Shown: positions 15,510 through 49,779 of the stretch, piece by piece | Layout: the number at the start of each line of letters is the position of its first letter | Position numbering within the stretch: position 1 is the stretch's first letter | Source of the DNA: Pseudomonas yamanorum | GTDB lineage: Bacteria; Pseudomonadota; Gammaproteobacteria; Pseudomonadales; Pseudomonadaceae | Assembly: GCF_900105735.1 (NCBI RefSeq) | Contig: NZ_LT629793.1 | Coordinates: forward strand, 6,386,001-6,450,000 | Direction of reading: 5' to 3' | Length of the DNA stretch: 64,000 nucleotides | Translations under genes and position numbers: made by a program | The notes under the pieces: model-generated | What the model was told of the DNA's origin: nothing | Databases searched by the model: none | What the model saw: only the letters and a program-made list of their open reading frames with translations

Positions 15510-17447
15510 ATGGGCCAGACTCGTTTTGCCAGTGGGCGTCAATTGGATCTGATTTGCCTGGGACGCCTGGGCGTCGACCTTTACGCACAACAAGTGGGTG
15601 CACGGCTGGAGGATGTCTCAAGCTTCGCCAAGTACCTCGGCGGTTCCTCCGCCAACATCGCGTTCGGCACCGCGCGGCTGGGGCTCAAGTCCGCGATGTT
15701 GAGCCGGGTGGGGGACGACCATATGGGGCGTTTCCTGCTGGAGTCCCTGGCCCGTGAAGGTTGCGATGTCAGCGGCATCAAGGTCGACCCGGAACGCCTC
15801 ACCGCTCTGGTGCTGCTGGGCCTCAAGGACCGCGAAACCTTTCCGCTGGTGTTCTACCGCGAGAACTGCGCCGACATGGCCCTGCGCGCCGAAGACATCA
15901 GCGAAGCCTTCATTGCCTCCAGCAAGGCGCTGCTGATCACCGGCACTCACTTCTCCACCGACGGCGTGTACAAGGCCAGCATCCAGGCCCTGGACTACGC
16001 CGAGCAGCACAACGTCAAACGCGTGCTCGACATCGACTACCGCCCGGTACTCTGGGGCCTGGCCGGCAAGGCCGACGGTGAAACGCGGTTTGTCGCCGAC
16101 CAGAATGTCAGCCAGCACGTGCAGAAAATCCTCCCGCGCTTCGATCTGATCGTCGGTACTGAAGAAGAATTCCTGATTGCTGGTGGCAGCGAAGATTTGC
16201 TCACGGCACTGCGCACGGTACGTGGCCTGACTTGCGCAACCCTGGTGGTCAAGCTCGGCCCGCAGGGCTGCACGGTGATCCACGGTGACATCCCGGCCCG
16301 CCTCGAAGACGGCGCCATCTACCCTGGCGTGCGGGTGGAAGTGCTCAACGTCCTGGGCGCCGGTGATGCCTTCATGTCCGGCTTCCTCAGTGGCTGGCTT
16401 GAAGACGCCAGCGACGAGCGCTGCTGCCAGTTGGCGAATGCCTGCGGCGGCCTGGTGGTGTCGCGCCACGCCTGCGCACCGGCGATGCCGACCCGTGCCG
16501 AACTCGATTACCTGTTCAACAGCCCGGTGCCGATTACCCGTCCGGATCAGGACGCGGTGCTGCAACGACTGCACCAGGTCAGTGTGCCGCGCAAAGTCTG
16601 GAAGCAGCTGTTTGTCTTTGCCTTCGACCACCGCTGGCAGTTGGTGGAACTCGCCCAAAAAGGCGGCCAGGACCCGGCGCGCATCAGCGCCCTCAAGCAA
16701 CTGTTTATCCAGGCCGTGGAACGGGTTGAAAGCAAACTGGCGGAGCAGGGCGTCGAAGCCGATGTGGGGGTTCTGGCTGACCAACGCTTCGGCCAGGACG
16801 CGCTGAACGCTGCCAGCGGTCGTGGCTGGTGGATCGCCCGTCCGGTGGAAGTCCAGAACTCACGGCCGCTGGCCTTTGAACACGGCCGCTCGGTGGGCAG
16901 CAACCTGATTGCCTGGCCCCAGGAGCAAATCATCAAGTGCCTGGTGCAGTTCCATCCTGACGACGAGCCGCTGCTGCGCCTGGAACAGGAAGCACAACTC
17001 AAGAGCCTGTACCAGGCGTCCCTGGTCAGCGGCCATGAATTGCTGCTGGAAATCGTGCCGCCCAAGGACCATCCGTCCACCTATCCCGACGTGCTCTACC
17101 GCAGCCTCAAGCGCCTGTACAACCTGGGCATTTACCCGGCGTGGTGGAAGATTGAGGCGCAGTCGGCCGCAGACTGGAAAAAGCTCGACGAACTGATCCA
17201 GGAACGCGACCCCTACTGCCGGGGCGTGGTGCTGCTGGGCCTGAATGCTTCCGCCGAATGCCTGGCCGATGGCTTCCAGCAAGCCAGCCAGAGCCAGACC
17301 TGCCGCGGTTTCGCCGTGGGCCGCACGATTTTCCAGGAGCCAAGCCGTGCCTGGCTGGCGGGGGAGATCGACGATGAGGGGTTGATTCAACAAGCCCAAG
17401 GCATATTCGAACAACTGATCAATGCCTGGCGCAGTGCTCGAAGTTAA
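15510..17447 (+). CDS. iolC: Fused 5-dehydro-2-deoxygluconokinase / DUF2090 aldolase-like protein (IolC)
   Basis: A 645-residue fusion. Residues about 10-330 are a PfkB sugar kinase (GRLGVDLYA near the N-terminus, LGAGDAFMSGF at 282-292 with catalytic Asp286) that phosphorylates 2-deoxy-5-keto-D-gluconate. Residues about 345-640 form a DUF2090 TIM-barrel domain (FVFAFDHRWQLVELA start), which in proteobacterial iol clusters is thought to supply the missing IolJ aldolase step giving malonate semialdehyde and dihydroxyacetone phosphate. No separate iolJ is present here, consistent with that view. ACAGGAG precedes the ATG. A REP doublet separates this gene from iolE. Confidence 0.92.
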   Translation: MGQTRFASGRQLDLICLGRLGVDLYAQQVGARLEDVSSFAKYLGGSSANIAFGTARLGLKSAMLSRVGDDHMGRFLLESLAREGCDVSGIKVDPERLTALVLLGLKDRETFPLVFYRENCADMALRAEDISEAFIASSKALLITGTHFSTDGVYKASIQALDYAEQHNVKRVLDIDYRPVLWGLAGKADGETRFVADQNVSQHVQKILPRFDLIVGTEEEFLIAGGSEDLLTALRTVRGLTCATLVVKLGPQGCTVIHGDIPARLEDGAIYPGVRVEVLNVLGAGDAFMSGFLSGWLEDASDERCCQLANACGGLVVSRHACAPAMPTRAELDYLFNSPVPITRPDQDAVLQRLHQVSVPRKVWKQLFVFAFDHRWQLVELAQKGGQDPARISALKQLFIQAVERVESKLAEQGVEADVGVLADQRFGQDALNAASGRGWWIARPVEVQNSRPLAFEHGRSVGSNLIAWPQEQIIKCLVQFHPDDEPLLRLEQEAQLKSLYQASLVSGHELLLEIVPPKDHPSTYPDVLYRSLKRLYNLGIYPAWWKIEAQSAADWKKLDELIQERDPYCRGVVLLGLNASAECLADGFQQASQSQTCRGFAVGRTIFQEPSRAWLAGEIDDEGLIQQAQGIFEQLINAWRSARS

Positions 17448-40220: not shown

Positions 40221-40268
40221 CAGGCTAAAAAATAAAACCACAAAAACCACATAAGCAACAAATCCAAC

Positions 40269-40298
40269 TTGACACTCGCCCACCGCGAGGCGTTTATT
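40269..40298 (+). promoter_or_regulatory. Sigma-70-type promoter for the amidase locus
   Basis: TTGACA (40269-40274), 18 bases, TTTATT (40293-40298), 41 bases before the amidase ATG. The -35 is a perfect consensus. An inverted CGCC...GGCG pair within the spacer (40277-40292) could be an operator. Confidence 0.55.
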
Positions 40299-40339
40299 GA
40301 CGTACCCATGGACTTTTCGTAGACGTCCCAGGATACTCA

Positions 40340-41770
40340 ATGAACACAGATGCCTCGTCGTCCTTTATGCCCAGCGTGCTAGACGCGGCCGACCGTATCC
40401 GCCAAGGCACACTCACCCCCGTGCAATTGGTCGAGCAAAGCCTCGAAGCCATCAAAACCCACAATTCCACATTGAATGCCTTTGGCGACGTCTACACCGA
40501 ATCCGCGCTGGAGCAGGCGAAAATCCTGACCGCCGAAGCACAGGCCAACCAGTTTCGCGGTCCGCTCCACGGCATCCCCTTCGGCATCAAAGACCTGTTC
40601 TCCACCGCCAACCTGCGCACCACTCGCGGTTCGCTCACCGGCCTGGACAACGTCCCCACACAAGACGCCCCGATCATCCGCCGCCTCAAAGAGGCCGGCG
40701 CGATCATCCTCGGCAAGACCGCTACCACCGAATTCGGCTGGACCGGCGCCAGCACCTCCCGGGTCTTCGGCAACGGCCGCAACCCGTGGAACCCACAACT
40801 CACCAGCGGCGGCTCCAGCTCCGGCTCGGCCATCGCCGTGGCGGCACGTATGGTCCCGGCTACGCTGGGCTCCGATGGCGGCGGTTCGGTGCGTATCCCC
40901 GGTGCCTTCTGCGGTGCATTCGCCCTTAAAGGCTCCCTCGGGCGCATCCCCACCTGGCCCTGGTCCGCCACTGAGATGCTCAGCCACGCTGGCCCGATCA
41001 CCCGCACCGTGCGCGACAGTGCGTTGCTCTTCGATATCCTCTCTGGGCCCGACCCATTGGATCACCAGGCTTTGCCCGCGCCGACCGAGTCCTACCTGTC
41101 GCGCTGCGACCAGCCGTTGGGTCCTTTGCGTGTGGCGTACTGCCCGACCTTGTTCGAGACGCCCGTGGACCCGGTCATTGCCGCTACCGTGGAAGCGGCG
41201 GTGCATTACCTCGCCGACGAGCTGCCGGCTACGGTCACCACCCTGACCCTGGACTGGCAAGACCCGCTGGCCACCTTCGAAACCCTGTGGGTTGGCGGGC
41301 GCGGGATCGCCTACGGCAAATCCCTGGCCGATCGCCTCGACCAACTGGACCCAGGCTTCGCCGCACTGATCAAACGTTCCGCCGATTACGACTTGGCGGC
41401 CTACCTCAAGGCCGTGCAACAACGTGCACTGTTCGCCAATCAGGTACACGCGTTGTTTAACGACTACGACGTGTTGCTGATGCCGACGATGCCGATTCTG
41501 CCGTTCGCCGCCGACCGGGTTGCCCCCGAGGGCTGGCCAGGGGAGGAGGGCGCAGTGCCCTGGGCACGCTGGACGCCGTTTACCTACCCGTTCAATATCA
41601 CCGGCAACCCCGCCGCCAGCCTGCCCTGTGGCTTTAGCCCGTGCGGTTTGCCGATTGGCTTGCAGGTGATCGGCCGGCGTTTTGCCGATGCCCAGGTGCT
41701 GCAATTCTGCGCAGCCGTGGAAGCCATCGCCCCGTGGGATCAGCACCTTCCCCCGATGCTGAATCCCTGA
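40340..41770 (+). CDS. Amidase (amidase-signature family)
   Basis: A 476-residue amidase-signature enzyme that hydrolyses a carboxamide with a Ser-cisSer-Lys triad. The residues are Lys84 (GIPFGIKDLF), Ser159 (SGGSSSGS) and Ser183 (GSDGGGSVRIPG), with the same spacing as in FAAH (75 and 24 residues apart). It is the first gene of a locus that contains a DeoR-type regulator, an M20 amidohydrolase, two kinases and a symporter. The substrate is unknown; amide, ureide or carbamoyl compounds are candidates. The stop codon is followed by 213 bases before the regulator. Confidence 0.9.
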   Translation: MNTDASSSFMPSVLDAADRIRQGTLTPVQLVEQSLEAIKTHNSTLNAFGDVYTESALEQAKILTAEAQANQFRGPLHGIPFGIKDLFSTANLRTTRGSLTGLDNVPTQDAPIIRRLKEAGAIILGKTATTEFGWTGASTSRVFGNGRNPWNPQLTSGGSSSGSAIAVAARMVPATLGSDGGGSVRIPGAFCGAFALKGSLGRIPTWPWSATEMLSHAGPITRTVRDSALLFDILSGPDPLDHQALPAPTESYLSRCDQPLGPLRVAYCPTLFETPVDPVIAATVEAAVHYLADELPATVTTLTLDWQDPLATFETLWVGGRGIAYGKSLADRLDQLDPGFAALIKRSADYDLAAYLKAVQQRALFANQVHALFNDYDVLLMPTMPILPFAADRVAPEGWPGEEGAVPWARWTPFTYPFNITGNPAASLPCGFSPCGLPIGLQVIGRRFADAQVLQFCAAVEAIAPWDQHLPPMLNP

Positions 41771-41983
41771 TTGATTGCACCCGGAGTGAGCTCAACAGAA
41801 GCCCGCCCGTGATAAACGCTTTGTGTTGTCCTGCCCTTTCACACCCTGATGAGTGAGAGGTACCCCGTGACCCTGTCCATGGCCGTATTACGCTCTATGC
41901 TCCCTGCTGGACCGGCTTGCGCCGCGTCTCGCCGTGGGTCGCGCAATACCGCCCGCCTGAACCTGCCCTGGAATACCTCTTTT

Positions 41984-42742
41984 ATGCTCAACCAGCCACG
42001 TCTCGACGAAATCATGCTCCTGCTCACCCAACACCAGCGCGTCAAGGCGTCGGACCTTGCGCAGACGCTGTTCGTCTCCGAAGAAACCATCCGCCGCGAC
42101 TTCAAGTACCTGGAAGAAGCCGGCAAGCTGCGGCGTATCCACGGTGGCGCGATCCTGCCGCGGCTCAACGAAGAACAGCCGCTGCAAGTGCGCAGCCGCA
42201 TCAAGCCCCAGGCCAAGACGCGCATCGCGGTGTGCGCGGCGAAGCTGGTGAGCGAAGGCATGGTGCTGTTTCTCGACACCGGCACCTCGACCTTGGCCCT
42301 GGCCCAGCAACTGATTGGGTTCAGCCAGTTGCGCATCGTCACCAACTCCCTGGACATCGCCCGCCTGATCACCGAACAAAGCGCCAACCAGGTGCTGGTG
42401 GTGCCTGGCGATGTACGCCGCAACGACAACGCGCTGATTGGCGCCCACACCCTGGAATTCGTCCGACAGTTCCACTACGACATTGCCTTCATGGGCATCG
42501 GCGCTGTCGACCTGGAGCTGGGGTTCATGGACTACCAGGAACCCGAGGCGCTGCTGCGCCGAGAGCTGACCAAACACAGCCTGCGCAGCGTGATCCTGGC
42601 CGACGACGCCAAGTTCGGCCACCGCACCTTTATCAATACGCTGCCGTTCAGCGCCGTCACGACCCTGGTCACCAATCGTGCGCCGTCCGGCGATTTTGCG
42701 ACCCGCCTGGAGCAAGCCCATGTCGACGTCCTTTACCCCTGA
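41984..42742 (+). CDS. DeoR/GlpR-family transcriptional regulator
   Basis: A 252-residue regulator with an N-terminal winged helix (RLDEIMLLLTQHQRVKASDLA then VSEETIRRDFKYLEEAGKLRRIHGGA, residues about 6-55) and a DeoRC sensor domain (LVSEGMVLFLDTGTSTLALA, residues about 90-109). This domain in DeoR proteins binds phosphorylated metabolites. That fits the two kinase genes in the same locus. The ATG at 41984 starts directly at the family-typical N-terminus; an in-frame upstream start at 41849 would add 45 unrelated residues. Its end overlaps the next gene by 23 bases. Confidence 0.88.
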   Translation: MLNQPRLDEIMLLLTQHQRVKASDLAQTLFVSEETIRRDFKYLEEAGKLRRIHGGAILPRLNEEQPLQVRSRIKPQAKTRIAVCAAKLVSEGMVLFLDTGTSTLALAQQLIGFSQLRIVTNSLDIARLITEQSANQVLVVPGDVRRNDNALIGAHTLEFVRQFHYDIAFMGIGAVDLELGFMDYQEPEALLRRELTKHSLRSVILADDAKFGHRTFINTLPFSAVTTLVTNRAPSGDFATRLEQAHVDVLYP

Positions 42743-44000
42743 GTTGCTGTCGCCCAGTGAACAGGACCTTGCAACCTTCGAGGCGCTGTTCCGCGATACC
42801 TCAGCCATCGGCGCGACTCAGGCCGGTGGGCTGCATCGCCTGGCGGCCTCGGCCGAAGACGGCGCTGTGCGCGACTTGTTCGCGGCCTGGCTGGCCGAAC
42901 GCGGCTTTGAAGTGCGCGTGGATGCAGTGGGTAACCTGTTCGGTTTGATGACCTTTAACCCAGACGCGCCCTACGTGCTGTGTGGCTCGCACCTGGACAG
43001 CCAGCCGAGCGCCGGGCGTTTTGATGGCGTCTACGGTGTGTTGGCTGGCGCGGTCGCGGTGGCCAGCGTTGCCCGGCAGTTGCGCGAGCGCGGCGAAGTG
43101 CCGGCGTGCAACCTGGCGGTGGTGAACTGGACCAACGAGGAGGGCGCGCGCTTCCAGCCCAGCCTGATCGGCAGTAGCGTGTTTACCGGCGACCTGTCGC
43201 TGCAAGACGCCTGGGCCTGCCGCGATGGCGACGGCATCAGCCTCAAGCATGCGCTGCAACAGATCGGTTATCTGGGGGAGGGCCGGGTGGAACTGAACGT
43301 TGCCGGTTACGTGGAGATCCACGTCGAACAAGGTGACGGCCTTGAGCGCGACGGCCTGGCCATCGGTGTGGTCCGCGACACCTGGGCGGCCCTCAAGCAA
43401 CGGATTCGTTTTATCGGCGAACAGAACCACACTGGCCCTACGCCCATGACCGCGCGCAAGGATGCCTTGCTGGCCGCCGCCCACGCGATCACCGCTGTGC
43501 GGGCCGAAGCCGACCTGCACGGGGCACAACTGCACAGCTCGGTGGGGCGCCTGGAGATTTACCCCAATTCCCCCAACGTGGTGCCCTCCCGTGTAACGCT
43601 GCACGTCGAGTACCGCTCCCCGGACACGGAGTTGCTGGCCGCCGCCGGTGAGCGCCTGGACGCCAGTCTCAAGGCCACCGCCAGCGCCACGTCTACGGAC
43701 TACAGCATCGAAAGTCGCGCACTGCGTGAACCGACCCACCTGCACCACGGCTTTTCCGAACTGGCCTACAGTGTTGGCCAGCAACTGGGCTTGCCCATCG
43801 GCAACAGCGTCACCGTCTCAGGCCACGACGCCATCAGCCTGAGCCGGCATTACCCGGTGTGCCTGCTGTTTATCCCAAGCAGCAATGGCGTGTCCCATAA
43901 CGAAGCGGAGTTCACCACCGAGGAGGACATGCGCAACGGTTTGCACATGCTGACCGCGTTGTTGCACCGCGCCTGTTCCACCCCCAACGCCTACCGCTGA
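42720..44000 (+). CDS. M20-family Zn-dependent amidohydrolase (allantoate / N-carbamoyl-amino-acid hydrolase type)
   Basis: A 426-residue metallo-amidohydrolase. The metal ligands can be read as the His in CGSHLDS (about residue 84), the Asp in GRFDGVYGV (about 95), the Glu pair NWTNEEGARF (about 130), the His in VEIHVEQGDGLE (about 200), and SHNEAEFT near the C-terminus (about 395). This pattern is shared by allantoate amidohydrolase, beta-ureidopropionase and N-carbamoyl-L-amino acid hydrolase. It begins inside the DeoR gene, implying translational coupling. The substrate is unknown; together with the upstream amidase it suggests stepwise cleavage of C-N bonds. Confidence 0.87.
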   Translation: MSTSFTPELLSPSEQDLATFEALFRDTSAIGATQAGGLHRLAASAEDGAVRDLFAAWLAERGFEVRVDAVGNLFGLMTFNPDAPYVLCGSHLDSQPSAGRFDGVYGVLAGAVAVASVARQLRERGEVPACNLAVVNWTNEEGARFQPSLIGSSVFTGDLSLQDAWACRDGDGISLKHALQQIGYLGEGRVELNVAGYVEIHVEQGDGLERDGLAIGVVRDTWAALKQRIRFIGEQNHTGPTPMTARKDALLAAAHAITAVRAEADLHGAQLHSSVGRLEIYPNSPNVVPSRVTLHVEYRSPDTELLAAAGERLDASLKATASATSTDYSIESRALREPTHLHHGFSELAYSVGQQLGLPIGNSVTVSGHDAISLSRHYPVCLLFIPSSNGVSHNEAEFTTEEDMRNGLHMLTALLHRACSTPNAYR

Positions 44001-44008
44001 GGTCTGCC

Positions 44009-44965
44009 ATGTCGAGTCGTTTGCAAGCAAAGTCACGGCTGCTGGGCGCCCTGGAGGCCGCCGGTTTGTCCGCCCATGTGGTGATCGAAGAGGGCGCCGC
44101 CGGGATTGCCTCGCCGGTGCGGCTGGCCACCGAGTGGACCGGCTATACCGTCACCGCGCCATGGGGGCGGTGTTACGCCAAAGTCTTGCATGACGACATG
44201 CGCGCGCTGATCGACATCGAACGCACCGCCCGCGCCACCCAACTGGCGGCGGATTGCGACGTGACGCCCGGCGTGCGCCTGGTGGATGCGGCGGCCGGCG
44301 TGTTACTGCTGGATGCCTTGCCCGCCAACGAATGGCGCTGGGCACGCCTCGACGAATTGATGCAGCCCCAGCGTCTGCAAGCGCTCTGGGCCCTGAAGAA
44401 ACAACTGCACGCCGGCACCTCGCCGGGCTTCACCCGCTCGCCGCTGCAAGATATCCAGCACCTGCGCGAGCTGTGCGTGCGCTACAGCGTGGCCCTGCCT
44501 ATTGACCACGCCTGGATCAGCACCTGCATTGACCTGGCCTGGACCTCCTTGCAATTGAGCGCCAGCGACTCGGTACCGCTGCACGGCGACGGCGTGGCGA
44601 GCAACGTGATGATCGGCCCCGACGGCGCCTTGCAACTGATCGACTTCGACTACGCTGGCTGCGGCGATCCCTGGTACGACGTGGCCATCAGCCTCAACGA
44701 GCTGTATGTCTTTGAAAGCGATTGGCGCGAAGGCATCCATGCCTGGGCCGGCGAATGCCGTGAAGGCGATTATGCCCGCTGTCGCTTGTACGCCTTGATC
44801 AACGATTGGTACTGGACCCTGTGGGGCCTCTGGGTCGGCGCCACCTCGGCGCGGCCGTTGGAGTTCTCCAAGGTTGGGCAATGGACGCTGTTGCGTTGCC
44901 GCCAGAGTCTGCAAGACCCACGGTTTGAAGGTTGGCTACGTCAGGTACAGGAGGGGCAGGCATGA
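44009..44965 (+). CDS. Aminoglycoside-phosphotransferase-fold kinase (choline-kinase-like), copy 1
   Basis: A 318-residue small-molecule kinase of the APH/choline-kinase fold. The catalytic loop HGDGVASN (192-199) and the metal-binding DFDYA (212-216) are intact. The N-terminal lobe is short but includes YTVTAPWGRCYAKVL with the probable ATP-binding lysine. It lies eight bases after the M20 gene, and its stop overlaps the start of a second kinase (ATGA). The acceptor is unknown; an alcohol or amino-alcohol is likely by family. Confidence 0.85.
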   Translation: MSSRLQAKSRLLGALEAAGLSAHVVIEEGAAGIASPVRLATEWTGYTVTAPWGRCYAKVLHDDMRALIDIERTARATQLAADCDVTPGVRLVDAAAGVLLLDALPANEWRWARLDELMQPQRLQALWALKKQLHAGTSPGFTRSPLQDIQHLRELCVRYSVALPIDHAWISTCIDLAWTSLQLSASDSVPLHGDGVASNVMIGPDGALQLIDFDYAGCGDPWYDVAISLNELYVFESDWREGIHAWAGECREGDYARCRLYALINDWYWTLWGLWVGATSARPLEFSKVGQWTLLRCRQSLQDPRFEGWLRQVQEGQA

Positions 44966-45897
44966 AAGCGTTAGGTGAGGCGTGTACGCCACAAGAGTGT
45001 CAGCTGGAAGCGGCGGTGCGCGGGGTTGCCAGTTGGGGCGGCAGCGGCATTCGTTATGAACCGGTCAGCGGCGGGATTTCCAACACCAACTGGCGGGTGG
45101 AAGTGGCCGGGGTCGACACCGCGTATTTCTTCAAGGTGCCGGGGGTGGGCACCGAGATGTTTATTGACCGTCGCACGGCCCACGACGCCAGCCTCAAGGC
45201 CGCGCAAACCGGCTATGGCGCGCCGGTGTTTGCCTTTCTTGAAGAGTTTGGCGTGGAAGTCTTCGAGTTCATGGAAGGCTGGCGTGCCTCCTCCAACCAT
45301 GACTTCCTCGACCGCGACGTGCGTCATAACGCGCTGCACGCCCTCAAGGCCTTCAACGACCAGCCGCCGTTGGTGCAGACCAAAACCGTGTTCGACATGA
45401 TCGCCGAGCACCAGCGCCAGGTGGAGCAACTCAACGGCTGCAAGCCCGCCGACGACGCGTGGCTGCGCCGCCAATGCGACCGCGCCCGGGGCGTGCTGCA
45501 AGCCTCCGGCATGGATTTGGCGCCGTGCATGAACGACACCCTGGCGGGTAATTTCATGCTCAACGACCGTCGGCAGATTCGCCTGGTGGATTTTGAATAC
45601 GCCTCCAACAACGACCGGCATTACGAACTGGCGCTGTGGTTCGGCGAAATGTTTTTCACCGATGAAATGGAGCTGGCCCTGATCGAAGACTACTTCGGCC
45701 AGGTTACTCCGCAGAACCTGGCACGCATCAAATTGCACAAGGCCCTGGCGGATATCAAATGGTCGACCTGGGCGATGGTGCAGCACGCGGTGTCGCAGCT
45801 GGATTTCGACTTCTACAAATACGGCACCTGGAAGCACATGCGTGCCCGCAGCATCATCAACGATTCGCAATGGGAAACCTGGCTAAGACAGGCTTGA
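44962..45897 (+). CDS. Choline/ethanolamine-kinase-fold protein, copy 2
   Basis: A 311-residue kinase of the choline-kinase branch (GGISNTNWRVEV near residue 36, FKVPGVGTEMFIDR near 58, FEFMEGWRASS). The Brenner motif reads MNDTLAGN (190-197): the catalytic Asp192 and Asn197 are kept, but the usual His two residues before the Asp is Met. DFEYASNN (about 212) supplies the metal ligand. The ATG overlaps the previous stop; GGAGGGGCAGGC precedes it. Having two diverged kinases side by side suggests either two acceptors or a heteromeric enzyme. Confidence 0.85.
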   Translation: MKALGEACTPQECQLEAAVRGVASWGGSGIRYEPVSGGISNTNWRVEVAGVDTAYFFKVPGVGTEMFIDRRTAHDASLKAAQTGYGAPVFAFLEEFGVEVFEFMEGWRASSNHDFLDRDVRHNALHALKAFNDQPPLVQTKTVFDMIAEHQRQVEQLNGCKPADDAWLRRQCDRARGVLQASGMDLAPCMNDTLAGNFMLNDRRQIRLVDFEYASNNDRHYELALWFGEMFFTDEMELALIEDYFGQVTPQNLARIKLHKALADIKWSTWAMVQHAVSQLDFDFYKYGTWKHMRARSIINDSQWETWLRQA

Positions 45898-46027
45898 GCC
45901 TGCGCCGTACAACAATAATGCATTGAATGAAGTCACTTGGGCGCTGATTGGTGCCTGCGTTTTCACTGCTTGATTTTTGTTTGATCACACAAAAAAACGA
46001 TCCACAAATTCAAGGAGCACCCGACTC

Positions 46028-46282
46028 ATGAAATCCGATAACGCGCCACCCGGACGCCTGAAAAGCCAAATTTTCGGTGTGTACTTTTTCCTGTTGCTGA
46101 TGCTCGCCTTATTCCCGCCGTTCTATTTGAGCGTGAGCGGCAGTACCGCGTTGGTACTGGGCATTCCGTTGCCGATCTTCTACTGGATCGCCATTGCCGT
46201 CCTCGCAGGCCTTGGCCTGTGGGCGTTGTACGTCGCCGAGCTGAAGGCCGGCGAAATTCCCGAAGAGGGGGATGCGCAATGA
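46028..46282 (+). CDS. DUF3311-family small membrane protein (symporter partner)
   Basis: An 84-residue protein with two hydrophobic helices (about residues 15-35 and 44-66) and an acidic tail ending PEEGDAQ. DUF3311 proteins are typically encoded just upstream of sodium/solute symporters and probably act as accessory subunits. Here the stop overlaps the symporter start (ATGA). The ribosome binding site AAGGAGCACCCGACTC supports the start at 46028. The 130 bases before it are AT-rich (GATTTTTGTTTGATCACAC), so a promoter separate from that of the kinases is possible. Confidence 0.82.
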   Translation: MKSDNAPPGRLKSQIFGVYFFLLLMLALFPPFYLSVSGSTALVLGIPLPIFYWIAIAVLAGLGLWALYVAELKAGEIPEEGDAQ

Positions 46283-47811
46283 TCAGCACCACCAGCGATG
46301 CCCACCTCTTTATCACCTTCGGCGTTATCGGCCTGTTTCTGGCCGGGATGATCGCCGTGCTGTACGCCACCAACCGCGAGAGCACGAGTTTTTCCGACTA
46401 CGCCGTAGGCGGGCGCTCCTATGGGCCGTGGTACATCGCCATGTGTTACACCAACTCCTGGTGGCCGGGCTCGACCTTTACCGCGTTTTTCGCCCTGACC
46501 ATCGGCGGCGCCCTGGGCTTCTACGGCATGGTCTACGCCACCCTTGGCGTGACGGCGATGTACCTGATGGCCCGCCGCGCCTGGACATGGGGCCAGCGTT
46601 TCAACCTGCGCACCCAGCCGGACTTGCTCGGCATGCGCTTCAACAGCCCGGTGGTCAAGCGCGTCGCCTCGATCATCGGCATCATCTCGGTGTTCCCGTG
46701 GGTGGTGATGGGCATCCAGGCCTTGGCGATGCTGTTCCAGTTCGCCAGCTTCGGCCGCTGGGGCGTCACCACCTGCCTGATCGCCGGCGTAGTGGTAGTG
46801 CTGGTGCGCCAGTACTGGACCGTGAGCATGGGCATGCGCGGGCTGATCATGACCGATATGTTCCAGGGCCTGATCGCCTATGTCGTGTGTGCGGTGCTGT
46901 GTGTGTTCCTGCTGTTCGGCGATCAGGCGTCGTTCTCCAACCTGTCGCACCTGCCGGCCAAGATGTTGCTGATTCCCGGCGCCAGCGGCACCGGCTATGG
47001 CCCGCTGTATATGTTCAGCCTGATCTTCACCGGGGTGATCGGCTCGATGTGCTGGCCCATGAGCTTCCAGCGCATCTACACCGCCAGCGGTGTGAAGGCG
47101 GTGAAGAAAGGCACGCTGTACACGATCCTGCTGGTGGGTGGTTTCTACGGGATTCTGATGCTGTTTGCCGCGGCCATCAGCCAGGACCCGAACGTCATCG
47201 CGCACCCGCAACAAGGCTGGTTCCTGTCACTGTTCGACATCGGCGGGCCGTGGATGCTGGCGCTGGCCATCGTCATCGTACTGGCGGCGAGCATCGGCCA
47301 CGTCGACGGCTGCGTGCAGGTATGCGGCACTCAGTTCGCCAACGACCTGGCCACCTGGAACACTCCGCGTACCGACCGGCAACTGACGCTGCTGGCCAAG
47401 TCCGGGATGGTGGTGTTTATCGTCGCCGCCTCGGTGCTGGCGTACCTGACCTTTGATTACGCGCGGCTGCAATTGCTGGCGCAGATTTCCTACCAGGGGA
47501 TTATCCAGTTGGCGGTGCCGCTGTTCTTCGGGATCTTCAGCCGCCGCGGCAACAAGGAAGGCGCGATTGCCGGGATGCTAGCGGGGATTGTGGTGGCGAT
47601 CGTGCTGACGACGATGTACCCGGACGACATTCCCGGGCTGGGGTCGTTGACCAGCGGGATCGTCGGGTTGGTGGTCAATGCGGGGATTTTTGTGGCGTGT
47701 GCACTGGCGATCAAGCCGAGCGCGGAGGAGAGTGCGCGGGTGGAGCAGTTGTTTGAGATGGCGGCGCCGGGTCGTAAAGTGCCGATGGGGGCGACGCCGG
47801 TCCTGAACTGA
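46279..47811 (+). CDS. Sodium/solute symporter (SSS family)
   Basis: A 510-residue inner-membrane transporter with about 13 hydrophobic helices. The sequence FSDYAVGGRSYGPWYIAMCYTNSWWPGSTF near residues 35-65 is typical of SSS TM1-TM2, and GVIGSMCWPMSFQRIYTAS near residue 255 includes the family Q-R-Y/I motif. It presumably imports the substrate handled by the amidase, M20 hydrolase and kinases. Overlap with the DUF3311 gene indicates a two-subunit transporter. The start ATG at 46279 is favoured over an upstream in-frame codon, as it fits the SSS N-terminus. A REP doublet follows. Confidence 0.88.
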   Translation: MISTTSDAHLFITFGVIGLFLAGMIAVLYATNRESTSFSDYAVGGRSYGPWYIAMCYTNSWWPGSTFTAFFALTIGGALGFYGMVYATLGVTAMYLMARRAWTWGQRFNLRTQPDLLGMRFNSPVVKRVASIIGIISVFPWVVMGIQALAMLFQFASFGRWGVTTCLIAGVVVVLVRQYWTVSMGMRGLIMTDMFQGLIAYVVCAVLCVFLLFGDQASFSNLSHLPAKMLLIPGASGTGYGPLYMFSLIFTGVIGSMCWPMSFQRIYTASGVKAVKKGTLYTILLVGGFYGILMLFAAAISQDPNVIAHPQQGWFLSLFDIGGPWMLALAIVIVLAASIGHVDGCVQVCGTQFANDLATWNTPRTDRQLTLLAKSGMVVFIVAASVLAYLTFDYARLQLLAQISYQGIIQLAVPLFFGIFSRRGNKEGAIAGMLAGIVVAIVLTTMYPDDIPGLGSLTSGIVGLVVNAGIFVACALAIKPSAEESARVEQLFEMAAPGRKVPMGATPVLN

Positions 47812-47841
47812 GCCCACCTCTCAAAAACCAATGAAGATCAA

Positions 47842-47932
47842 CTGTGGGAGCTGGCTTGCCTGCGATAGCGATGTATCAGTGGCAGAGATGTTGACTGACA
47901 CTCCGCTATCGCAGGCAAGCCAGCTCCCACAG
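47842..47932. repeat. REP doublet between convergent symporter and sigma-54 activator genes
   Basis: CTGTGGGAGCTGGCTTGCCT and its complement AGGCAAGCCAGCTCCCACAG flank a 51-base spacer. It is the most symmetrical member of the set, and the inner GCGATAGCG/CGCTATCGC also pair. Confidence 0.88.
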
Positions 47933-47958
47933 TTTTAACCGTGTTCCTGATCAGAGTC

Positions 47959-49779
47959 CTAGTTTTGCCGCAGTCGCTTGTACAGGGTATTGCGGCTGAC
48001 GCCGAGCTCCCTGGCCAGGTGAGAAATATTACCGCCCGCCGCCTTCAACCGCTGGGCAAGGTCCATGCTGTCGTCCAGCTTCTCACCGGCTGGCTCTGGC
48101 ACCAGCCCATTCAAATCCACAAAAAAATCATCCGGCAAATGTTCCACCCGAATCGGCAGCTCTTCCGCCATGGCCAGCGCCACCTGCAACACGCTGCTCA
48201 CCTGGCGTAGATTGCCCGGCCACGGATGCTGTTCAAACAAGGCCAGTACCTCGTTACTCAATCCGGCCCACTGCGTCGGCTCGCGATGCTGTTGCCACAG
48301 CTGCTTGAACAACGCCTGTTTATCCGTGCGCTCCCGTAGCGGCGGCAGCTCCAGGGTCAGGCCACCGATTCGGTAATACAGGTCTTCGCGAAAACGCCCG
48401 AGCTGTACCTGTTCGCGCAGCGAGCGGTTGGTGGCGGAGATGATCCGCAAATCCACCGGGTACAACTCGCTGCTGCCTACAGGCTGAACACAGCGTTCCT
48501 GCAACACCCGCAACAGCCGGGCCTGGGTCGGCAGCGGCATGTCGCCGATCTCGTCGAGGAACAGCGTGCCTTTATCTGCCTTGCGGATCAGCCCGATACT
48601 GCCTTTCTGGTTGGCGCCGGTGAACGCGCCTTTTTCGTAGCCGAACAGTTCCGACTCCACCAGTTCGGCGGGGATCGCTGCGCAGTTGACGGCGATAAAT
48701 GCTTGTTGGCTGCGGGAACTGGCCTGGTGCAGGGCTTTGACGAACACTTCCTTGCCGACGCCGGTTTCGCCATGGATCAGCAACGGAATGTCCTTTTCCA
48801 GCAGGCGCTCGGCCTGACGCACGGCCTTTTCCACGCGGGCATCGCCGAAGTGCAGGGTCTTGAGACTGATGGCCGTGGGGCCGGATTCGCTGGGCTTTTT
48901 CGTTTCCACAAACACGCGAGCCTGCACTGGCGCCTGTTTCGGCCGTTTCAGCAGGCATTGGAAACGGTTGCGCCCGGCGGCTTGCAGCGAGAAGGGCAGG
49001 CCTTCGGGCTGGTTGAGCAGTTCCAGCAGCGACACCTTGAACAGGCTGTCGATCAACACCCGCGACAGGCTGATGCCCAGCAGGTTGTCAGCCCGGCGAT
49101 TGGCCGACAGTACCTGGCCGCTTTCATCAAAAATCAGCAGCCCGGCCCATTGGCTGTCGAGATTGTTCAACCCGGTATTGAACGTCAGCTGGAAATGCTC
49201 ACCGCGAAACAGGTTGAGGATCAGCCGGTTCTCGACGGTCTGGCTCATCATCTTGACCATGCCCAGGGTGTGGGAGGGCGGCAGGTAGCTGTCGCTGGAC
49301 ACATCCAGCACCGCGATGATTTCCCGCTGCGCATCGAAGATCGGCGCTGCCGAGCCGGTCATGAAACGGTTGGCCTTGAGGAAGTGTTCGTCGTGTTCGA
49401 TATGCACTGCCTGGGCACAGGCCAGGGCGGTGCCGATGGCGTTGGTGCCGCTGGAACGCTCCATCCAGCTGGCGCCGGCGCTGAAACCATGGGCCAGCTT
49501 GGGTTCGATAAAACGTTGGGTGCCCCACGAAGTCAGCACCTGGCCCTGGTTGTCGGCAAGCATGATCAGGCAGTTGGAATTGCTGAGAATGTTTTCGTAG
49601 TAGGGCAGCACTTCCTGGTGGGTGGTCTGCACGAGGGAATGCTGGCTTTCGAGCAATTGGCTGACGCCGTCTGCGGGCAGTTGGTCGAAGCTCGGCGTGC
49701 TCTGGTGATCCAGGCCATAGGCCCGGCAGCGGCGCCAGGAGTCCTGGATGATGGCATCGTGCGCCAGCGGTGTGCTCAT
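47959..49779 (-). CDS. Sigma-54-dependent activator, AcoR type (GAF-AAA-Fis)
   Basis: A 606-residue enhancer-binding protein. An N-terminal GAF-like sensor (about residues 75-200, with SSGTNAIGTALA) and a PAS-like segment (about 215-280) precede the AAA+ domain with Walker A GETGVGKE (337-344), the sigma-54 contact loop GAFTGA (384-389) and LFLDEIGD. The C-terminal Fis-type helix-turn-helix reads GNISHLARELGVSRNTLYKRLRQ. It is divergent from a six-gene ABC importer with its own -24/-12 promoter and a TGTTCA array, so it almost certainly activates that operon in response to a small molecule sensed by the GAF domain. Confidence 0.92.
   Translation of the reverse strand: MSTPLAHDAIIQDSWRRCRAYGLDHQSTPSFDQLPADGVSQLLESQHSLVQTTHQEVLPYYENILSNSNCLIMLADNQGQVLTSWGTQRFIEPKLAHGFSAGASWMERSSGTNAIGTALACAQAVHIEHDEHFLKANRFMTGSAAPIFDAQREIIAVLDVSSDSYLPPSHTLGMVKMMSQTVENRLILNLFRGEHFQLTFNTGLNNLDSQWAGLLIFDESGQVLSANRRADNLLGISLSRVLIDSLFKVSLLELLNQPEGLPFSLQAAGRNRFQCLLKRPKQAPVQARVFVETKKPSESGPTAISLKTLHFGDARVEKAVRQAERLLEKDIPLLIHGETGVGKEVFVKALHQASSRSQQAFIAVNCAAIPAELVESELFGYEKGAFTGANQKGSIGLIRKADKGTLFLDEIGDMPLPTQARLLRVLQERCVQPVGSSELYPVDLRIISATNRSLREQVQLGRFREDLYYRIGGLTLELPPLRERTDKQALFKQLWQQHREPTQWAGLSNEVLALFEQHPWPGNLRQVSSVLQVALAMAEELPIRVEHLPDDFFVDLNGLVPEPAGEKLDDSMDLAQRLKAAGGNISHLARELGVSRNTLYKRLRQN

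Follow-up and report, generated by a model that had tools for sequence, protein, structure and literature searches.

Which compound does a bacterium take up and degrade with a symporter, two hydrolases, two kinases and a DeoR-type repressor that are encoded side by side? This question is raised by seven open reading frames located at positions 40,269 to 47,811 of a 64,000-nucleotide stretch of Pseudomonas yamanorum DNA (assembly GCF_900105735.1, contig NZ_LT629793.1; the whole stretch is called the window below). Our analysis argues that these genes probably form an inducible operon for the breakdown of an amide, or an amide-like conjugate, of ethanolamine or of a close 2-amino alcohol, which would be degraded via phosphorylated intermediates. 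A preliminary description of the window, made from its letters alone, had read the genes as a single pathway for an amide- or ureido-substituted alcohol or amino alcohol. The single pathway and the amino alcohol are retained here, the latter being sharpened towards ethanolamine by the kinase folds, the pocket of the second kinase and the gene neighbours; the ureido substrate found no support.

A conserved unit of seven genes

The seven frames are all on one strand and are listed here in their order.

40340-41770, plus strand: amidase-signature hydrolase (PF01425, 332 bits; Lys-Ser-Ser motifs present)
41984-42742 (open frame from 41849), plus strand: DeoR/GlpR-type repressor (PF00455, 143 bits; PF08220, 61 bits)
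42720-44000, plus strand: M20 amidohydrolase of the hydantoinase/carbamoylase type (NF006772, 623 bits; TIGR01879, 318 bits; Pfam Peptidase_M20, 65 bits)
44009-44965, plus strand: kinase 1, of the aminoglycoside phosphotransferase (APH) superfamily, with a choline-kinase-like fold in its structure model (PF01636, 58 bits)
44962-45897, plus strand: kinase 2, of the choline/ethanolamine kinase family by profile (PF01633, 72 bits), structure model and pocket residues
46028-46282 (open frame from 45977), plus strand: small membrane protein, DUF3311-like below the cut-off (PF11755, 12.4 bits)
46279-47811, plus strand: sodium:solute symporter of the SSS family (PF00474, SSF, 62 bits)

All the frames are present as first described, and the overlaps claimed for them are exact: 23 bases between DeoR and M20 (42720-42742) and an ATGA both between the two kinases (44962-44965) and between the small protein and the symporter (46279-46282). 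The ATG codons at 41984 and 46028 are the likely starts of the repressor and of the small protein. Because 213 bp separate the amidase stop from the likely DeoR start (78 bp from the first start codon of the DeoR frame), the genes are tightly coupled only from DeoR onward. The families Amidase, DeoRC, HTH_DeoR, Peptidase_M20, APH (kinase 1), Choline_kinase (kinase 2) and SSF exceed their Pfam cut-offs, in agreement with the labels first given to these proteins; the DUF3311 label of the small protein is the exception, its score of 12.4 bits (E 0.17) lying under the cut-off of 30.

A survey with kinase 1 as query, in one genome per GTDB species, gave 25 loci, 24 of which come from organisms named Pseudomonas and one (L011) from an organism named only as a member of the Gammaproteobacteria. 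Genes were scored as present by tblastn with an E value of 1e-10 and more than 35% of the reference covered. The amidase, DeoR, M20 and kinase 1 were detected in all 25 Pseudomonas-type loci, and kinase 2, the small protein and the symporter in 24. All seven genes follow the same order in 24 loci, the exception (L009) being a contig that ends at kinase 1. The symporter of L015 may be frameshifted, since its match falls in two overlapping pieces. The flanks vary: an OpuAC-TonB-DUF3995 block is found upstream in the window, L007, L008 and L010 (TonB-DUF3995 in the shorter L009), and an AcoR-ABC block downstream in the window, in L005, which is the locus of P. yamanorum IPO3780, and in L006. These alignments indicate that the seven genes exist as described and are kept together as a unit. 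Conservation of the neighbourhood was the test that the preliminary description had set for its single-pathway reading, which it supports; the candidate operator found before the first gene (see below) agrees with it.

The distribution is sporadic. Kinase 2 was found in 9 of 199 genomes of the genus sample of Pseudomonas, in 10 of 248 genomes from the family of genome G307 (probably Rhizobiaceae) and in 6 of 398 genomes of the phylum sample, the P. yamanorum genome included. The class sample gave this genome alone (1 of 369), and thus no new locus.

Other forms of the locus in plant-associated bacteria

Relatives of kinase 2 (E 1e-5) occur in 98 plasmid records of PLSDB, including 33 from Agrobacterium and 30 from Rhizobium. 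We gathered 28 further loci, 14 from annotated plasmids picked for diversity among these records and 14 from 13 genomes; not all are independent, as they comprise two Ri/Ti plasmids and two Pantoea plasmids. They come from rhizobia, agrobacteria, Pantoea, Paracoccus, Arthrobacter and others, and the replicons with the gene set include those of the P. syringae group, Pantoea, Rhizobium and Agrobacterium, Ti and Ri plasmids among them. As sequences alone, apart from any gene neighbourhood, kinase relatives were also seen in Erwinia, Klebsiella and Paraburkholderia. Both kinases are present in all 28 further loci (kinase 2 by construction), DeoR and M20 in 26 each and the amidase in 15 (tblastn). 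The Arthrobacter locus is devoid of DeoR and has an annotated GntR gene instead. The transport genes differ: a binding protein of a peptide-type ATP-binding cassette (ABC) importer is found in 20 of the 28, and the symporter with the small protein in four (the two Pantoea plasmids, a P. oryzihabitans plasmid and Arthrobacter).

The two kinases

Kinase 2 exceeds the cut-off of the choline kinase family PF01633 (72.3 bits against 29). Kinase 1 stays under it (24.2 against 29) and exceeds that of the APH family PF01636 (58.4 against 23.2), so that it resembles choline/ethanolamine kinases by its predicted fold only. The AlphaFold models have a mean confidence (pLDDT) of 88.9 for kinase 2 and 94.2 for kinase 1. 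In Foldseek comparisons with the PDB, choline/ethanolamine kinase entries occupy ranks 1-44 among the 50 matches listed for kinase 2 (TM score of 0.78 to 3dxq); the best matches of the kinase 1 model are 3dxq and LicA, choline/ethanolamine kinases again coming first.

The choline pocket of LicA (PMC4364537) is made of Tyr197, Trp251, Trp254, Tyr268, Val178 and Glu213, with Thr29 and Asp176 on the hydroxyl. By reading the alignment, these positions were mapped to Y213, W267, W270, Y287, L194, E229, S40 and D192 of kinase 2, respectively. In 172 sequences of kinase 2, Y213 is kept in 168 and W267, W270, Y287 and E229 in 171 each; the position of Val178 is a leucine (L194) in 147 and that of Thr29 a serine or threonine (S40) in 168. 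The catalytic D192 is invariant (172 of 172) and N197 is kept in at least 168. By its aligned residues, kinase 2 therefore retains the aromatic-plus-Glu cation pocket of the LicA choline site. Its substrate would be a cationic amino alcohol, whose phosphorylation is predicted from these residues and from the model.

The pocket differs in kinase 1. Among 149 sequences, D194 is conserved in 146, E231 in 147, W269 in 143 and W272 in 123; position 215 is a tyrosine in 72 and an arginine in 42, and the position of Tyr268 is occupied by valine or leucine in 126. Lys288 is invariant (149 of 149). This invariant lysine, together with the variable cage residue 215, hints at an acidic substrate, and kinase 1 would act on a more acidic relative of the substrate of kinase 2.

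Proposed disposal of the amino alcohol

In part of the further loci, the genes that adjoin the kinases point to ethanolamine. EutB is present in nine of the 28 loci and EutC in eight, the stretch of L035 being cut within EutB; both were confirmed by Pfam in L044. The residues that we take to bind ethanolamine in EutB are kept in the five in-locus EutBs checked of the nine, two positions being shifted one residue later (L068, L035, L067 and L073 were left out of this check). In genomes G307, G628, G586 and G524 the EutB of the locus comes in addition to another copy at a different site, which is split in G586, and in G404 a truncated EutB start follows kinase 2 directly, at the contig end. A class III pyridoxal-phosphate (PLP) enzyme is encoded in four further loci (L046, L069, L070 and, more distantly, L073); that of L046 matches the models PRK06148/PRK06149 and PbfA below their cut-offs. 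Among the class III lyases is ethanolamine-phosphate phospho-lyase (PMC8154272). A ligase resembling glutamine synthetase (GS) was found in two further loci, L046 and the Arthrobacter locus L048; in the latter, its GS domain was found by Pfam with no NCBIfam cut-off reached, and it is accompanied by a C26 hydrolase and, by annotation, by an aldehyde dehydrogenase and a short-chain dehydrogenase/reductase (SDR). In all, 13 of the 28 further loci contain at least one of these disposal genes (EutB, class III PLP enzyme or GS-like ligase).

The window operon itself contains no EutBC. The only EutB match of its genome is at genome positions 4234166-4235452, the window covering 6386001-6450000. The co-occurrence of EutB with the locus was considered as a test in Pseudomonas and rejected as having no power: EutB is present in all 25 Pseudomonas-type carrier genomes and in 190 of the 199 genomes of the genus sample, in which all nine genomes with kinase 2 have it.

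Phosphatases of two unrelated families (PF00459, HisN-type, and PF12710, HAD-IB) also accompany the locus. Seventeen of the 28 further loci contain a HisN-type gene of the inositol-monophosphatase family, which on pRi1724 comes immediately after kinase 2, and three of the five proteins scanned exceed the TIGR02067 cut-off of 275.15 (306.5 in L035, 291.1 in L037 and 298.3 in L051). A HAD-IB gene begins 26-67 bp after the symporter in six of 24 Pseudomonas-type loci (one of these 24, L004, ends 96 bases after the symporter) and in the P. oryzihabitans plasmid locus L040; in the scan, which covered four of these seven proteins, the Pseudomonas histidinol-phosphatase model scored best for all four. 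Histidinol phosphate is the phosphate of a 2-amino alcohol. Two unrelated phosphatase families, each with histidinol phosphate enzymes as its nearest NCBIfam models, have thus become part of the locus.

The hydrolases and the transporter

The M20 protein contains the catalytic motifs GSHLDSQP, GRFDG, WTNEEG, EIHVEQG and SGHDA, and it exceeds the cut-offs of broad subfamily models (NF006772, 623 bits against 424; TIGR01879, the hydantoinase/carbamoylase model, 318.1 against 204), one of those exceeded being named allantoate amidohydrolase. It is under the cut-off of each equivalog model among those listed, with 257.7 against 520 for ErtE and 213.6 against 597.75 for the AllC equivalog TIGR03176. 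The ureido substrate of the preliminary description is not supported by these scores, which lie over the broad subfamily models and far under AllC. The amidase reaches the cut-off of none of the 25 NCBIfam models listed, and comparison of both hydrolases with the PDB gave general relatives only.

For the symporter no NCBIfam cut-off was reached (MctP, 49.5 against 625) and no match was obtained in the PDB. Relatives of the small membrane protein occur in 24 of the 25 Pseudomonas-type loci and in four of the 28 further loci, which are exactly the loci with the symporter; by this co-occurrence it is probably the partner of the symporter. The periplasmic binding protein of pRi1724 has PDB matches spread over peptide, opine and nickel binders, which point to no particular ligand.

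Regulation

A repeated element is located upstream of the amidase.

40238-40268, plus strand: candidate operator, four direct repeats CMAC-N5 with a period of 9, abutting a -35-like TTGACA at 40269-40274

The element (CCACAAAAACCACATAAGCAACAAATCCAAC) aligns between the window and the 14 Pseudomonas-type loci compared, out of 25, although the repeats of L025 and L026 are degenerate; these Pseudomonas sites share a common descent. One match to the four-copy pattern lies in the window, seven of the loci have the pattern too, and 50 local shuffles of the window gave none. A looser two-copy pattern precedes a locus gene in 27 of the 53 loci (18 of the 25 Pseudomonas-type and nine of the 28 further loci), including those of pRi1724, Shinella, pRL12, pAtS4e, Paracoccus, Thioclava and both Pantoea, all of them Pseudomonadota and spanning further orders of that phylum. 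Over the 53 loci, 44 of the 92 matches of this pattern lie upstream, against a mean of 2.7 of 15.3 in shuffled sequences. The operator pattern was written after the alignment had been seen. Scans for consensus promoters and terminators gave one promoter-like and eight terminator-like sites, against 1.8 and 6.9 in shuffles, and thus no excess.

DeoR is predicted to bind the CMAC repeats, and the observations are consistent with its sensing a phosphorylated metabolite. On pRi1724, a chemoreceptor gene beside the locus (L035 14929) is preceded, at 151 bp, by a CMACA repeat pair of its own, which suggests chemotaxis towards the substrate under the same repressor.

Proposed pathway and alternatives

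From the genes, their conservation, the folds, the pocket residues, the gene neighbours and the repeats we infer the following reactions, their order and the inducer. The symporter and its partner would import the compound, a task that the peptide-type ABC importer would perform in rhizobia. As these importers are of the peptide type, the compound may be small and zwitterionic, for instance an ethanolamide with an aminoacyl or glutamyl group. The C-N bond would be cut by the amidase, the M20 hydrolase or both, and the two choline/ethanolamine-type kinases would phosphorylate the hydroxyl, likely after uptake as first proposed: the substrate of kinase 2 would most probably be the cationic amino alcohol as such, and that of kinase 1 a related compound with an acidic group, which might be the conjugate before it is cut. 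DeoR would be released from the CMAC repeats by the phosphorylated amino alcohol, whose disposal would depend on the lineage, by a histidinol-phosphatase-like phosphatase and ethanolamine ammonia-lyase, by a class III PLP enzyme (which may be a phospho-lyase) or by gamma-glutamylation. In P. yamanorum, genes at other sites of the genome would provide the last steps, for example the EutB mentioned above. If phosphorylation preceded hydrolysis, the need for a phosphatase would be explained. It is possible, and we suggest it tentatively, that this amounts to a widespread and so far undescribed route in which kinase 1 phosphorylates the intact acidic conjugate, M20 or the amidase cuts the phosphorylated amide and kinase 2 captures the free amino alcohol; the phospho-amino alcohol would then be both the inducer and the branch point for interchangeable disposal modules (phosphatase with EutBC, class III PLP enzyme or gamma-glutamylation).

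Several observations weigh against the proposal of an ethanolamine amide. The cation pocket of kinase 2 favours a free amine and disfavours a neutral N-acyl ethanolamide, and kinase 1 retains no more than part of that pocket. A kinase and a phosphatase that shared the free amino alcohol and its phosphate would run a futile cycle, which leaves the order of the steps unexplained. The histidinol-phosphatase assignments are imperfect: two of the five HisN-type proteins are under the TIGR02067 cut-off (271.4 in L050 and 229.2 in L048), the pRi1724 protein has an entry named inositol monophosphatase as its first PDB match, histidinol-phosphatase coming third, and the HAD-IB proteins score 222-244 against the HolPasePseu cut-off of 280. 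No EutB, class III PLP enzyme or GS-like ligase was found in the stretch fetched for 15 of the 28 further loci (L045 being cut by its contig), and no disposal gene was detected by tblastn in the 25 Pseudomonas-type loci; EutB in all the Pseudomonas carriers is uninformative because a chromosomal EutB is nearly universal in the genus. Many Pseudomonas loci are close relatives of one another. Finally, the operator pattern has its post hoc definition against it, and its two-copy form was not found upstream in 26 of the 53 loci, Arthrobacter among them.

Part of these observations would suit another hydroxylated amine, such as 1-amino-2-propanol, serinol, a hydroxylated amino acid or an N-alkyl ethanolamine conjugate, with EutBC acting on a close analogue or being incidental. 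The invariant Lys288 and the variable position 215 of kinase 1, the 15 loci without a disposal gene and the L046 PLP protein, whose below-cut-off matches belong to a group of various substrates, all accord with such a substrate. We nevertheless find it rather doubtful, given the nine loci with EutB, the ethanolamine-site residues kept in the five that were checked, and the Arthrobacter set of ligase, C26 hydrolase, aldehyde dehydrogenase and SDR, which resembles an ethanolamine route. Catabolism of a purine ureide of the allantoate type or of an N-carbamoyl amino acid, with the kinases of side relevance, is improbable: the subfamily scores of M20 recall such enzymes, including one model of allantoate amidohydrolase, yet the protein falls far under AllC and under ErtE, the two kinases would be unexplained, and no ureide gene set was seen among the annotated plasmid neighbours, even if allophanate hydrolase and formamidase genes lie downstream on the P. 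oryzihabitans plasmid.

It is also very improbable that the locus serves detoxification, the kinases inactivating an aminoglycoside-like or other hydroxylated antibiotic and the hydrolases degrading it. Both kinases do match the APH family, the locus is sporadic in Pseudomonas and kinase 2 relatives are found on plasmids; however, structure and profile matches place choline/ethanolamine kinases ahead of resistance kinases, and the presence of a special importer, of an additional phosphatase and of enzymes that deaminate suits feeding, not protection. Salvage of thiamine or its thiazole, in which thiamine-kinase-like enzymes would act on the hydroxyethyl group, has hardly any likelihood in our view. 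It could draw on a weak ThiK match of kinase 2 (37.8 against 299) and on a ThiM-like (hydroxyethylthiazole-kinase) gene 122 bp after the symporter in L011 (13648-14460) and L012 (13923-14735), the family scan covering that of L011. This gene is however limited to two of 24 loci with variable flanks, and the EutBC, HisN and GS neighbours would be without a role in salvage.

Relation to known systems

The eut systems take free ethanolamine. The operon proposed here for an ethanolamine amide shares EutB and EutC with the cobalamin-dependent systems in the further loci counted above, and it differs from them in that importers, two hydrolases and two kinases come first and in that the window copy is devoid of EutBC. 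The succession of an amino-alcohol kinase and a PLP lyase was reportedly found in Erwinia and Pseudomonas by biochemistry of the 1970s, and the same pattern is said to hold for hydroxylysine kinase and phosphoethanolamine phospho-lyase. The class III PLP genes of four further loci recall these systems, whereas most loci with accessory genes have a phosphatase; we know of no hydrolase or DeoR in either system. The M20 protein is akin to the hydantoinase/carbamoylase family (HyuC, beta-alanine synthase, AllC) by its motifs, by the broad models and by its PDB relatives, and it is set apart by its scores under every equivalog cut-off among those listed and by the two kinases beside it.

In Streptomyces coelicolor, ethanolamine is used through gamma-glutamylethanolamide by GlnA4, SCO1611-1613 and SCO1615 (PMC9397018). 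The Arthrobacter GS-like ligase and C26 hydrolase, with the annotated aldehyde dehydrogenase and SDR, are the same kinds of enzymes, whereas the available text on that route names no kinase, phosphatase or amidase/M20 step before the ligase. LicA (PMC4364537) resembles kinase 2 in its fold and cation-pocket residues; it supplies phosphocholine for the cell wall, unlike the catabolic operon proposed here with its second, divergent kinase.

A full-text literature search, judged by titles and the starts of abstracts and with most subscription-journal papers outside its scope, returned no description of the locus or of the pathway. If the proposal is correct, a conserved gene set of plant-associated bacteria feeds on a nutrient that is not named in the literature searched. 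Two kinase families that at present bear the label 'aminoglycoside phosphotransferase' or 'choline kinase' would receive functions open to testing, and several unrelated ways to dispose of one amino-alcohol phosphate would come to light. The phosphorylated-amide route, if it exists, would mean that plants or microbes offer an ethanolamide nutrient not known so far.

Neighbouring genes and other features

On pRL12 of Rhizobium johnstonii 3841 (L047 14444-18699), PxpA and genes annotated as biotin-dependent carboxylase/allophanate hydrolase, of the 5-oxoprolinase type, adjoin the locus; they are a hint of a glutamyl partner, or are there by chance. A gene of the N-formylglutamate-amidohydrolase family lies between EutB and the amidase on the Ri/Ti plasmids (L035 1122-1910 and L054 4089-4916). 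On the P. oryzihabitans plasmid, a set comprising allophanate hydrolase, a BMP-type ABC transporter and formamidase is located downstream of the operon (L040 14346-21394).

In the window, the gene that follows the symporter is a convergent AcoR-like gene, and this copy of the operon is without a phosphatase gene. Between the two lies an inverted repeat (47840-47934) with 41-nt arms, 93% complementary and 13 nt apart, which could be a bidirectional terminator and which, by its motif, looks like a REP/REPIN element. A sigma-54 activator gene followed by ABC transporter genes (47959-49779) adjoins the operon only in the window, L005 and L006 among the 25 loci, and was taken as flank. Elsewhere in the window (15510-17447), a PfkB kinase is fused to DUF2090, an arrangement known from IolC-type inositol catabolism.

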